Positions 24,172 to 31,549 of a DNA stretch of 51,855 nt are shown one piece after another; the stretch's first letter is position 1; each line of letters begins with the position of its first letter. Position numbers and translations under genes: made by a program. The notes below the pieces were generated by a model that did no database searches, was not told where the DNA came from, and saw only the letters and a list, made by a program, of their open reading frames with translations. This DNA comes from Bdellovibrionota bacterium (lineage in GTDB: Bacteria; Bdellovibrionota_G; JALEGL01; DATDPG01). The stretch lies in assembly GCA_035292885.1 (NCBI GenBank), contig DATDPG010000021.1:1-51855 (forward strand). Direction: 5' to 3'.

Positions 24172-24399
24172 TTGGTGCCGAGTTTCTTTGCCTCCCTTTC
24201 CGAGCAGTGGGAAGTGGGGGACGTTATCTTCTTGGTCTCTCTGGCGATTTCGGTTCTGACCATCCTCTACGCGATATCGCTCGTACATCGGAAGATCCGT
24301 TTGATTGAAGGCGAAATCCAAGCGATGCGAAAGGACCAAACGGTCATCAGCGAGGAGCTTGAACTGATCGCTTCCGCCAAGGGTGGCCGGCGTACGTAA
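24172..24399 (+). CDS. small membrane protein, unknown (75 residues)
   Basis: A frame with one transmembrane helix (VIFLVSLAISVLTILYAI) followed by a basic and then coiled-coil-like cytoplasmic tail (RKIRLIEGEIQAMRKDQTVISEELE). An exceptionally good AGGAGG lies 9 bases before TTG 24172, so I choose that TTG start (LVPSFFASLSEQW) over ATGs further upstream that run into queE. GTG 24175 is an alternative. The stop overlaps the MocA-like start (GTG 24383) by 17 bases. No family recognised. Confidence 0.6.
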   Translation: MVPSFFASLSEQWEVGDVIFLVSLAISVLTILYAISLVHRKIRLIEGEIQAMRKDQTVISEELELIASAKGGRRT

Positions 24400-25060
24400 A
24401 AAGCGGTTTCGACCGATCATCGCCGGATTGATTCTGGCCGCCGGCGAATCCAAGCGGTTCGGTCGCCCTAAAGCCCTTGCGCAATTCGGCTCCCAAACGG
24501 CGCTATCTCTTTTGGTTGGCGCGGCTCGAGCCGCGAAACTCGATCCTCTTTTTGTGATCGTCGGGCATCATGCGGAAGACATTCGGGAGGAATGTCGATC
24601 TTTGGGCGTGCGCGCCGTCGTGAATGACGAGTGGAAGTGGGGTCAGCTTTCGTCGCTGCAGGCCGGTCTGCGCGCTCTTTCTTCGTCTGTACAGGCGGTC
24701 GCGATGTTTCTGGTCGATCACCCGCTCGTACCGGAAGAGACGATCAAGCAATTGATTCGCAGCTATAAATCGGACCCCTCCAAAGTTTATCGACCGGTGG
24801 TGGGTAGAAAGGGGGGGCATCCGGCGCTTTTTCCCCGGTTATTCTTCGATGAATTGCTTCGACTGGATCCCCGAGAAAAATCGGCACGAGACGTATTTTT
24901 CAAGCCCGGTCGGTGCGTGGATTTGAAGGTAGAGGACGCCGGCGCGACTCTGGAATTCGATACGGAAGAGGGTTACCGAGGGTTGCAGCGGATATATGGG
25001 CAAAAAAAAAGCGACAAGCGACAGAACGCACGTAAAGAGGTTTCGCTTTTCGAGGAGTGA
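24383..25060 (+). CDS. MocA-like molybdenum cofactor cytidylyltransferase
   Basis: A 225-residue MobA-like nucleotidyltransferase. The nucleotide-binding LAAGESKRFGRPKALAQFG loop, the metal-binding VDHPLVPEET strand and GGHPALFPRLFFDELLRLD are typical of MocA-type enzymes that attach CMP to molybdopterin, making the MCD cofactor used by xanthine-dehydrogenase-family hydroxylases. Such a hydroxylase is encoded 1.4 kb downstream on the same strand, which supports the role. It starts at GTG, overlapping the small membrane gene. A general NTP transferase is the alternative. Confidence 0.82.
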   Translation: MAGVRKKRFRPIIAGLILAAGESKRFGRPKALAQFGSQTALSLLVGAARAAKLDPLFVIVGHHAEDIREECRSLGVRAVVNDEWKWGQLSSLQAGLRALSSSVQAVAMFLVDHPLVPEETIKQLIRSYKSDPSKVYRPVVGRKGGHPALFPRLFFDELLRLDPREKSARDVFFKPGRCVDLKVEDAGATLEFDTEEGYRGLQRIYGQKKSDKRQNARKEVSLFEE

Positions 25061-25069
25061 GCTACACGT

Positions 25070-26185
25070 AAGGTCGATAAAGTCCTGTTGCCAGGCCCCA
25101 TCTTCCGCCCTCGTGGTTTTCGTGCGCTATAGAGATTTAACGACTGCCGGTCTAGGAAGCTTATGGCTTGCTTCCAACCCTTACGCTCTTCGGTTTCCCT
25201 GAGCCCTAGGGCACTCAACCAGAAGCCGGCCTGAAGCCTTATCGCTCAGCTTCAGTTTGTCCTCTTCTGCGCTTCGACGCCACCTCGGCGTTTTACCCCT
25301 ACGCTCGCTGCTTTTCTACCGACGTCCCACGTCGACCGTGATCCGCCTTCGGAAGCACCTCGCATAAGCTTTTTGACCCTACAGCATATCCGGATGAAGA
25401 AGCTCTTTTGTTCATCTTCCTTTTGAGAAGACGTCCTGCAGGTTTTGCCCTTCCCGCAGGAAGCCCCGCTCGCAGGGTTTGGCTACCCTCACAGCGGACT
25501 TTGTCTCTCCATCCTTGGAAGCCTCTTTCAGCTCCCAACGCTCGTGGGTTTCGCCCTTCAGAGCTTTAACCCCTCTCTTGGTGGTCGAAACGACGTTTCC
25601 GTCATCTCTATTCGCTCTTGCGCTTTTCTGCATAACCTCGTCGGCCACGCATCGGCGCTTCAGCGCGTTCATCCCACCCAAAAAGCCGAACCCCTTGTTG
25701 CTACCCGGAGGGTTAGTCCAGGTCGGGATCGTATGCTCTCTTGGGCTTTGCAGCCTTCCAGGTGCTCTCTCTCCGCGGACGGTTCAAAGATCATCTCCCT
25801 CTCTGAACTCCCCTCGCATCCTTATTCTCTCTCCACCTCGCAGTGGAGAGATTCGTGGATCTCAGGGGTTTACGTACCACGAAGATTGGCTTTCCCCTTA
25901 CGGGGCGCCGACCTGCCTGGCCTTTTCGGCCGACTGTCACCGCCATCTCTTCGAAAAGGTAACTCGCCGCGGACTATTTTTTCACCTCGGAGGACCGAAG
26001 AATCTTTCAATCCCTCAGCATCTCCTCTTAGCGGCCAGCCCCTTCTCTCCTTTCGGGAGATAGTGGCCTGTTTCCGGCCCCTCTTCCGGCGATCTCTCGC
26101 CTGTCGAGGCGGACCATATTCATGTCACCTCACCGGGTCAACGACTCGATTTGTTCCCGTTCGGTTTTTTTTCGAGTCTTGTATT
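25070..26185 (-). ncRNA. candidate large structured noncoding RNA
   Basis: About 1.1 kb without a credible gene. The minus strand is purine-rich and full of short stem-loops. Four have GNRA loops on that strand: 25084-25095 (loop GCAA), 25829-25850 (9-bp stem, GCGA), 25894-25905 (GTAA) and 26046-26060 (GAAA). Others are 25155-25175, 25231-25255 (7-bp perfect stem), 25320-25334, 25655-25666 (TGAA) and 25919-25931. In the 25829 stem one pair is G-U on the minus strand but C-A on the plus strand, which fixes the sense. Nine T residues at 25010-25002 (minus) could end transcription. I do not recognise a known family; boundaries are approximate. Confidence 0.5.
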
Positions 26186-26512
26186 TTCAACGACTTAGAG
26201 GTCCGTTCGAAAAATCGTTTTGTGATGGATCAGAGGCGATGGTGCATTGAACCGCCAGGGGACCCGTATGATTTCGAGACAGCATCGAAGTAAGCTTTCA
26301 AGCGGTGATTGTTAAGGGACGAGCCGTACGGTCTTCAGGGAACCATTGAACGATAAGAAATTCCCGACGTTCAGTAGAGATCTCTCAGCGGAGCAAGGGA
26401 GGCAGCGCTGGTTTTCAATAGACGTAGGAATGGTTGGGAAAATTTACTGAAAAAAATCCGCCGAAATTGAATTTGACGTCAATCGAACGGCGTGTGAATT
26501 TACGGGCCCCCG
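26186..26512. other. intergenic region before the molybdenum hydroxylase genes
   Basis: About 330 bases without a gene, between the 5' side of the candidate RNA (minus strand) and the hydroxylase operon (plus strand), so it should hold two divergent promoters. I cannot point to a convincing -35/-10 pair on either strand. There is an A-rich stretch at 26449-26456 and a GGGCCC just before the hydroxylase ATG. Nothing else is recognised. Confidence 0.4.
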
Positions 26513-27019
26513 ATGTCTTTCAAAGCTACGAGCAAGGTGCGCGAGCGCGTCCACGGCATGTTCAACGTCAATGGAGAACGGGCGGAAATCGCGTTTGCGC
26601 CCCACAAGACGCTCCTGGAACTCCTGCGCGAGGATCTTGGGCTCACAGGTACGAAACATGGATGTGAATTGGGCGAATGCGGTGCTTGTGCCGTACTCGT
26701 CGATGGTAAATCTATCCTCTCTTGTCTCGCCCTGGCTTTGGAATTTCAGGACAAAGAAATTACGACCGTCGAAGGATTGGCCGCAGACGCAAACCTGCAT
26801 CCTCTGCAGGAAGCCTTTGCCGATCTTGGGGCGGCCCAATGCGGATATTGCACGCCCGGAATTCTCTGCACGGCCAAGGCACTGCTGGACAAGAATTCTC
26901 ATCCCTCGCCGGGAGACATTCGGGAAGCGTTATCGGGAAATCTCTGTCGTTGTACGGGGTACTTGCAGATTCTTGAAGCCGTGCAGGCGGCCGTCCAGAA
27001 AATCGCCCAAAAGCGATGA
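26513..27019 (+). CDS. [2Fe-2S] small subunit of molybdenum hydroxylase (HcrC-like)
   Basis: A 168-residue subunit carrying two [2Fe-2S] clusters that pass electrons between the molybdenum site and FAD. The plant-type cluster motif is CELGECGACAVLVDG...SC and the helical-domain motif is CGYCTPG...CRCTG. Order small-large-medium and 4-base overlaps with the next gene indicate one operon. The start at 26513 gives an N-terminal extension; ATG 26558 (MFNVNGERAEIAF) matches the family start better and is a real alternative. The enzyme type is set by the FAD subunit (see its entry). Confidence 0.93.
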   Translation: MSFKATSKVRERVHGMFNVNGERAEIAFAPHKTLLELLREDLGLTGTKHGCELGECGACAVLVDGKSILSCLALALEFQDKEITTVEGLAADANLHPLQEAFADLGAAQCGYCTPGILCTAKALLDKNSHPSPGDIREALSGNLCRCTGYLQILEAVQAAVQKIAQKR

Positions 27020-30553: not shown

Positions 30554-30569
30554 TGATATCATGATATCA
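30554..30569. promoter_or_regulatory. tandem 8-bp palindromic operator
   Basis: TGATATCATGATATCA: the self-complementary octamer TGATATCA repeated twice without a gap, so the 16 bases are also one perfect palindrome. It lies 3 bases before the ATG of the gene encoding a ribbon-helix-helix fusion. RHH dimers such as MetJ bind tandem 8-bp boxes cooperatively, so this is the expected form of an autoregulatory site. It would cover the translation start as well. Confidence 0.65.
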
Positions 30570-30572
30570 ATC

Positions 30573-31145
30573 ATGGCCGCTCAAAGAAACGGACGGATTC
30601 TTCTTCGAATCCCAGGGGAGCTCCACGGCAAGCTTCGAGACGCCTCCCGCCGGGAAGAAATCTCCCTGAATGGACTACTAAACCGGATCATTGCACGCGG
30701 AACTTCGATTCCGACGCACGCTTCGGAAGTCGATCAACCTAATAATGAACTCGTACGACGTATACGCCACTCGCTCGGTGACGATCTGGAAGCGATCGTT
30801 CTCTTTGGTTCGGCGGCCCGAAGAGAAGAGTCAGCACTTTCCGACGTTGATCTTCTCATCGTGTTATCGGCTGGGAAAAATTTAACTTCCGACCTCTACC
30901 ACCGTTGGGCACATGCCTTTTCACAACCTTCAGATCGCCGGTTATCTCCCCATTTTGCCGCCCTCCCCCTCGATGTTCAAAAGGTCGGAAGCCTCTGGTT
31001 CGAAGCCGCTCTTGAAGGGGTCGTCCTTTGGGACCGCTCCGAAAGGACAGGAAAGCTGCTCATGGATCTTCGAGGACAGATGGCGGAACAAAAGCTCCTT
31101 CGGAAATGGTCTCACGGGCATCCGTATTGGGTGAGGACCGAATGA
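30573..31145 (+). CDS. RHH-MNT fusion antitoxin-like nucleotidyltransferase
   Basis: A 190-residue two-domain protein. Residues 6-41 (GRILLRIPGELHGKLRDAS, then REEISLNGLLNRII) look like a ribbon-helix-helix DNA-binding fold. Residues about 58-185 are a minimal nucleotidyltransferase with the active-site motif GS-x10-DxD (G79, S80, D91, D93). MNT proteins of type VII toxin-antitoxin systems inactivate a HEPN toxin by adding AMP to it. Here a HEPN gene follows with a 4-base overlap. ATG 30573 is chosen because an ATG at 30561 lies inside the palindromic operator. The fusion suggests the antitoxin represses its own operon. Confidence 0.82.
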   Translation: MAAQRNGRILLRIPGELHGKLRDASRREEISLNGLLNRIIARGTSIPTHASEVDQPNNELVRRIRHSLGDDLEAIVLFGSAARREESALSDVDLLIVLSAGKNLTSDLYHRWAHAFSQPSDRRLSPHFAALPLDVQKVGSLWFEAALEGVVLWDRSERTGKLLMDLRGQMAEQKLLRKWSHGHPYWVRTE

Positions 31146-31549
31146 AAAACCGGTCCCTCACCAAAGATTATTTAATCCGGGCCGAGCATCGCTTGGCGGC
31201 GGTGGACCTCCTCTTTTCGCGTGGCGCATTCGCCGATGTTGTTCGAGAGGCACAGGAAGCCGTGGAGCTGATGCTCAAAGCCCTCCTTCGAACGGGACGG
31301 ATTGAGATTCCAAGAATTCACGACGTGGGGGATATCCTTCTCGAAAATCGGCAGCGATTTTCTAAAGATGTTCAACCCCATCTTGAACGCTTTGCCGAGA
31401 TTTCACGGCAGATGAGGCGAGATCGAGAACTCGCGTTTTACGGATCGGAAGATCTAACGCCGAGCGAGTTCTATAAGAAGGCGGACGCCGAGCGAGCGCT
31501 GGGAGACGCACGGTTCATTTGGGAAAAACTGCGCCCCTTCGCAACGTAA
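31142..31549 (+). CDS. HEPN domain protein (putative toxin)
   Basis: A 135-residue helical protein of the HEPN superfamily, translationally coupled to the MNT fusion (ATGA). Typical features are a first helix with YLIRAEHRLAAVDLLF, a second with DVVREAQEAVELMLKALL, and the PRIHDVGDIL turn. The usual HEPN ribonuclease motif R-x4-6-H is not obvious: the corresponding place reads RRDRELAFYG, with Tyr rather than His. It may therefore be a diverged toxin, or a substrate and binding partner without RNase activity. Function by family and context only. Confidence 0.75.
   Translation: MKNRSLTKDYLIRAEHRLAAVDLLFSRGAFADVVREAQEAVELMLKALLRTGRIEIPRIHDVGDILLENRQRFSKDVQPHLERFAEISRQMRRDRELAFYGSEDLTPSEFYKKADAERALGDARFIWEKLRPFAT

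Follow-up and report, generated by a model that had tools for sequence, protein, structure and literature searches.

A modular structured noncoding RNA of about 1.1 kb in a Bdellovibrionota genome and in distant bacteria

The locus and a second copy in the same genome

The window analyzed here is a stretch of 51,855 nucleotides (assembly GCA_035292885.1, contig DATDPG010000021.1, positions 1 to 51,855) from a Bdellovibrionota genome of 3.1 Mb in 214 contigs. Between positions 24383 and 30473 it carries a gene for a MobA-like NTP transferase and, next to it, three genes that form a molybdenum hydroxylase cluster of the xanthine/CO dehydrogenase type. The RNA gene described here (25002-26106, minus strand) lies between the MobA-like and hydroxylase genes, in the opposite orientation. 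Farther along, at 30561-31549, adjacent nucleotidyltransferase (Polbeta/NTP_transf_2) and HEPN genes resemble an MNT/HEPN toxin-antitoxin pair. An initial annotation of the window had suggested that the minus strand of 25002-26190 encodes a structured RNA, about 1.1 kb long and not previously described. Further copies, covariation, and the lack of any Rfam match bear this out within narrower limits: 25002-26106 is the whole RNA gene, terminal U-tract included, with its start near 26106, and 26107-26190 is upstream DNA outside the RNA that holds a promoter-like site.

The purine bias and dense stems that had drawn attention to the minus strand were confirmed. On that strand, 25012-26106 is 61% purine, and its minimum free energy is -477.9 kcal/mol, compared with -371.5 kcal/mol for the plus strand and -385.5 ± 6.8 kcal/mol for dinucleotide shuffles (z = -13.5). 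The seven near-full-length copies introduced below are each about 60% purine and have fold z values from -4.1 to -13.5, which are rough since they come from 12 shuffles per copy.

A second copy in the same genome (contig C8, C8:9804-10908) is 71% identical to the window copy (hereafter W; 25002-26106, minus strand, contig C21) over 1,118 nt. The two share both ends, the 5′ end carrying GACAGGCGAG and the 3′ end GCTTGTC and then a T-run. When W and C8 were folded together with RNAalifold, the minus strand yielded -814.7 kcal/mol and 331 pairs, of which 53 are changed on both sides and none is broken, whereas the plus strand yielded -606.6. Column shuffles preserving local conservation reached -556 ± 11 (best, -581), a z of about -24. 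Four hairpins that the initial annotation had read as closing with GNRA loops are real in W, and two of them keep their loops in C8. The hairpin at 25084-25095 is CCUG-GCAA-CAGG in W and UCCG-GCAA-CGGA in C8, and that at 25829-25850 retains its GCGA loop, the stem covarying in both. At 25894-25905 the C8 loop is UUCG, another stable tetraloop, and at 26046-26060 it is not GNRA.

Long plus-strand frames of 282 and 194 amino acids exist in this region, and one could suppose that a protein gene or pseudogene lies there, with the fold as its by-product. The frames are stop-poor because the RNA strand opposite them is purine rich. The MAFFT alignment of W and C8 contains seven internal gaps, all of a single base except one of two bases, so that every frame is broken; coding is ruled out by these single-base gaps. 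Stops occur in all frames, nothing matches Pfam, and the minus strand far exceeds the plus strand in the strength of both fold and covariation. The W/C8 alignment thus already refutes a coding reading, to which we assign a negligible probability.

Relatives in distant genomes

Copies beyond the source genome were found with covariance models; their E-values are rough, coming from shortened calibrations. A model of module B (25376-25549, described below) built only from W and C8, R2, matched a viral contig, L082 (IMGVR_UViG_3300028420_000243; E = 2.2e-12), and genome G004 (G4), from another family of the same five-genome phylum (E = 4.9e-12), in which the whole RNA is present. A four-sequence model, R3 (W, C8, L082, and G4), matched a third, divergent copy in the source genome, C202 (E = 8e-4), and three genomes outside the phylum: G176 (1.5e-13), G352 (1.2e-11), and G122 (8e-8). 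We hold these matches to be genuine because an architecture absent from the models recurs at them; the matched relatives sit in otherwise gene-poor stretches of about 1 kb. The relatives thus comprise two more copies in the source genome, the RNA of one further genome in the phylum, those of three genomes beyond it, and a single module on a phage contig.

The RNA is therefore present in at least 5 of 385 genomes, sampled mostly at family level; the count is a minimum, since scoring was confined to each genome's best candidates. At the covariance-model sensitivity used, no match was obtained in three genomes of the same order, from which it follows that loss or transfer of the gene is probably frequent. 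Other searches returned little. Plain BLASTN across the 385 genomes found chance matches only, as did exact patterns (GCTTANGCGAGGTGCTT and later ones) in viral contigs, L082 excepted. A 19-mer scan of genome contigs gave 53 chance matches, all within long open frames, and model R1 (25258-25390, inside domain C) found nothing convincing beyond its two source copies. No similarity was found for W, G4, or G176 in phage and plasmid collections, for L103 (the G352 locus) in plasmids, or for L104 (the G122 locus) in phages; positions 1-150 of L082 matched nothing meaningful among phages and plasmids.

In L082, module B occupies the contig start (L082:1-148) and is immediately adjoined by the latter half of an interrupted portal gene of the lambda type (137-970), where the PF05136 match picks up again at position 191 of the 354-position profile. 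This contig has neither domain C nor the closing helix. The arrangement may reflect a chimeric contig, a truncated copy, or mobility, and a purely chromosomal scaffold does not account for it. The C202 copy lies near a tRNA-Val(cac) gene (L097:4155-4229) and near a recombinase-like open reading frame fragment (L097:3705-4223) that has no Pfam match, surroundings hinting at an integrated element.

Joined ends and tandem modules

The two ends of W are predicted to pair in a long-range closing helix, P0, between CGACAGGCGA (26097-26106, minus strand) and TCGCTTGTCG (25012-25021, minus strand). Such a helix was found in six of the seven near-full-length copies (W, C8, G4, G176, G352, and G122), with a different sequence each time and with spans between its ends of 1095, 1101, 1053, 996, 1033, and 1070 nt, respectively; it was not resolved in C202. 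In G4, whose RNA is 1053 nt, it comprises 17 bp, or 20 bp when extended with G-U pairs.

A putative promoter (26113-26141, minus strand) consists of TTGACC (26141-26136), a 17-nt spacer, and TATGGT (26118-26113), and its end lies 6 nt short of the RNA's first base. It is the only sigma-70-like site on either strand in a scan of 24950-26550. Upstream of the RNA, G352 has TTGACA-17-TAAAGA and G122 has TTGACA-17-TAAACT. In W, G352, and G122, the promoter-like site ends 6 to 7 nt before the first paired base and scores above about 99% of shuffles. Weaker promoter-like hexamers precede the RNA in C8 and G4, and no convincing site was found upstream of it in G176.

At the other end, the run of nine T's at 25010-25002, which the initial annotation had placed in the end of the MobA-like gene, is indeed there and follows the closing helix as a U9 tract (minus strand), the probable end of transcription; C8 has U8 at the equivalent place, and G176 has CTTTTT immediately 3′ of P0. 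The U-tract directly abuts the closing helix in W, C8, and G176, and in G352 a T7 run lies a few bases past it. No local terminator hairpin scored at the U9 tract of W, and in W, C8, and G176 the paired 5′ and 3′ ends of the RNA may themselves provide a terminator. In G122, a terminator-like hairpin stands apart, past the closing helix (L104:7893-7930; AACCCCCGGTTAAACGGGGGTTTTTT; CCCCCGGTTAAACGGGGG then T6). Because promoter-like sites lie upstream and the RNAs end in U-tracts or terminator-like structures, the RNA most likely forms a transcription unit by itself, as judged from these signals. Transcription would start from the promoter at 26141-26113 and end at the U-tract once the closing helix has formed.

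Between the joined ends of W, all on the minus strand, five domains follow one another in tandem. Domain Y, the 5′ domain (25923-26096), is less well resolved and is delimited by the two-sequence fold of W and C8. Module Z (25752-25922; motif-chain scan), closed by GGCC/AGG/CAGGU...ACCUG/GAA/GGCU, has a similar motif in C8, G176, and G352. Module A (25553-25746) is closed by GCCC/AAG/AGAGC...GCUCU/GAA/GGGC, and module B (25376-25549), the best conserved, by ACCC/ACG/AGCGU...AUGCU/GUA/GGGU. Domain C, the 3′ domain (25045-25369), is closed by GCUU/AUG/CGAGG...CCUCG/AA/AAGC. Short linkers separate Z from A (GCAAA, 25747-25751), A from B (GAA, 25550-25552), and B from C (CAAAAA, 6 nt, 25370-25375). 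Since Y, Z, A, B, and C lie in tandem between joined ends, the RNA is predicted to form a giant central junction with related arms.

The closing motif shared by Z, A, B, and C consists of a short outer helix, a purine-rich internal loop that is typically 3x3, and an inner helix (for example, CCC-AAG-GAGC...GCUC-GAA-GGG), with arms joined by A-rich linkers of 3 to 6 nt. A scan for it recovered tandem Z-A-B chains in W, C8, and G176 with linkers of 3 to 5 nt and nearly constant offsets from the 5′ end (Z at about 180, A at about 330 to 360, and B at about 520 to 560); chain scores were 14 to 45, against shuffle means of 3 to 9. In G352, the scan found Z and B, and folding set the limits of module A; in G122, Z, A, and C were not clear. 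We considered a kink turn at the ends of the modules but rejected it, since the loop is symmetric, 3x3 (AAG/GAA, AYG/GUA, or GAG/GAG), and the required bulge is absent.

Module A was also reached from module B. In C8 (E = 6.5e-4) and in G4, matches to the module B model R3 coincided exactly with the boundaries of module A; weak sub-threshold matches occupied the equivalent position in C202 and a nearby one in W. Single-sequence folds of Z and A in G176 and G352 have the same topology, matching that of B: a closing helix with a 3x3 loop, a three-way junction with a hairpin, and an arm with an A-rich internal loop, followed by a nested helix-3x3-helix and then a hairpin. This internal repetition suggests that a large RNA can grow by module duplication. 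Across members, a hairpin loop of 8 nt in module B stays close to UGAAAYAA (e.g., L102:7545-7692, L103:7784-7930, and L082:1-148) and could make a tertiary contact or a contact with protein.

In W, C8, G4, G176, and G352, exactly 6 nt separate B from domain C, which in these copies is 289 to 328 nt long and ends 23 to 33 nt before the end of the RNA. Its helix strands, which were first picked by eye, are GCCU/AAG/GAAGU..ACUUC/GGA/AGGC in G4, CCCC/ACG/GGAG..CUCC/GAA/GGGG in G176, and CCCU/AUG/AGAG..CUCU/GGA/AGGG in G352, so the sequence differs among copies while pairing is preserved in each. A blind 3x3 scan recovered this closing helix only in G4, G176, and G352. It missed W and C8, in which the loop is 3x2, and did not recover the helix in C202 or G122.

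Covariation in the stems is overwhelming. Among eight sequences of module B, in an alignment fitted to the structure, 26 of 38 pairs are changed on both sides, a count reached by 0 of 500 shuffles, and 93.6% of cells are paired, compared with 33 to 50% when the structure is slid by 1 to 3 columns. For module A the MAFFT alignment of six sequences was not fitted to the structure, which was obtained from RNAalifold on that same alignment; there, 24 of 45 pairs are changed on both sides (again reached by 0 of 500 shuffles), and 87.0% of cells are paired, compared with 42 to 47% when slid. At the level of sequence and predicted structure, the minus-strand fold, the helix joining the ends, the tandem related modules, and conservation across distant bacteria are established. 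The modular repeats and the broad distribution go beyond what the initial annotation had proposed.

Genomic setting, known RNA families, and a possible scaffold

The 3′ end of the RNA overlaps the MobA-like gene by about 58 nt, antisense to its end, as might be expected of a cis-acting element, whether an antisense or 3′-end regulator of that gene or a leader of a neighboring one. At most loci, the neighbors differ (MobA-like and xanthine dehydrogenase type, HD-GYP/PilZ, HPr kinase-like/Fur, DUF711, or PIN-PhoH), so that the other copies adjoin unrelated genes in varied orientations, and in the window the RNA is directed away from the xanthine dehydrogenase-type genes. Because the neighbors change from copy to copy, we regard a cis-regulatory role as very unlikely.

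The initial annotation had been reminded of GOLLD, ROOL, and OLE by size and loop content while recognizing none of their motifs, and the RNA proved to be none of the three. Rfam includes models of OLE, ROOL, GOLLD, HEARO, and introns. No Rfam 15 family matched any copy at gathering or relaxed thresholds, in a search whose sensitivity is indicated by the recovery of SRP RNA and tRNAs in the same loci. In particular, the OLE model matched no copy at E ≤ 10 or E ≤ 1, and the ROOL and GOLLD models matched none even at relaxed thresholds. No description of the RNA was found in a literature search, with mostly open-access coverage, that turned up papers on OLE, ROOL, and GOLLD.

A very divergent member of OLE, ROOL, GOLLD, or HEARO would share with the RNA a similar size range, intergenic isolation, GNRA loops, and joined ends, and the module in a phage contig recalls GOLLD, for which phage contigs are a known setting. 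Against such kinship, no Rfam model scores any copy even at relaxed thresholds, and to our knowledge a layout of repeated modules is not a feature of any of these classes; we consider it improbable. ROOL and GOLLD, like the RNA here, are large intergenic RNAs of bacteria and phages, noncoding, with many stems, GNRA loops, and strong covariation. At about 580 nt (ROOL) and about 800 nt (GOLLD), both are shorter than the RNA described here (about 1.0 to 1.1 kb), to which they have no sequence or covariance-model similarity. Their symmetry arises from 8 and 14 separate chains, whereas here related modules stand in tandem in one chain. OLE, of about 600 nt, is found mostly in Bacillota and has known protein partners; the RNA here has no Rfam match, and no such partner was found. 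OLE is likewise stand-alone, highly structured, and chromosomal, and it serves as a ribonucleoprotein scaffold (PMC12286853, PMC9723947).

Several observations would fit a ribozyme, or the RNA at the core of an intron-like or insertion-type mobile element that spreads in genomes: three copies in one genome, a patchy distribution, the module at the exact interruption of the L082 portal gene, and C202 near a tRNA-Val gene and a recombinase-like fragment without Pfam match. The hub-like layout also recalls group II introns, whose domains radiate from a central junction with short linkers. Unlike those introns, the RNA has no intron ends and no reverse transcriptase, and six of seven copies end in a paired closing helix; no group II model in Rfam matched, hence no domain V/VI or D1-D4. 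Group I and HEARO models gave no match either. HEARO/omega RNAs are also large and structured and can lie inside interrupted genes, but they are under half the size and tied to IscB/IsrB-type nucleases; no IscB, IsrB, or TnpB gene was recognized among profiled open reading frames beside full-length copies, and neither was an endonuclease, transposase, or reverse transcriptase. The copies lie between genes and have promoter-like and U-tract ends of their own, W and C8 differ by 29% with compensatory changes, unlike the products of recent transposition, and L082 lacks domain C and the closing helix. On this evidence we judge a ribozyme or mobile core unlikely, though less so than the other alternatives.

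The region at 25002-26106 almost certainly encodes a genuine class of structured noncoding RNA. The class is uncatalogued, with W as a founding member, and it has the properties of a large architectural RNA, being conserved, covarying, noncoding, hundreds of nucleotides long, and encoded by its own gene. Taken as a whole, the reading that we favor, and hold to be probable, is that of a stand-alone structured noncoding RNA of about 1.1 kb, built as a modular hub, transcribed on its own, and acting as a scaffold like OLE, ROOL, and GOLLD. Its role would then be that of an architectural RNA, not of a ribozyme or messenger. The scaffold role taken by itself, which rests on architecture and on analogy with these three RNAs, is put forward tentatively as one that the RNA could well have. 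Repeated module ends would give a pseudo-symmetric, multivalent particle, and these ends might offer a series of docking sites, either to several copies of a single protein or to the same module surface of sister RNAs.

The structures of ROOL, GOLLD, and OLE have been described as homo-oligomers, with ROOL and GOLLD forming RNA-only cage assemblies of 8 and 14 chains and OLE a dimer (PMC12286853). More speculatively, the RNA might represent a new class of giant RNA in which a single chain, with diverged copies of a module around a junction, forms a pseudo-symmetric particle by itself, spans distant lineages, and touches phages. Such a particle would be a covalently fused analogue of the homo-oligomeric cages of ROOL and GOLLD; we see this joint reading as possible but rather doubtful. 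The RNA offers a compact target on which to test modular RNA evolution and RNA-only assembly, and the seven near-full-length copies provide starting alignments and constructs. Bacterial RNA classes longer than 500 nt are few, and the ones that are understood have turned out to be ribozymes, ribonucleoprotein cores, or RNA assemblies.

No partner protein is conserved beside all copies. The only recurring neighbor is a PIN-PhoH ATPase gene (Pfam PIN_4 and PhoH), which immediately precedes the RNA, in the same orientation, in G176 (L102:5432-6763) and G352 (L103:5572-6882), genomes of different families. Because PhoH proteins of this type act on RNA, the PIN-PhoH protein is a candidate partner, and these two loci weakly point to it as a possible functional one.
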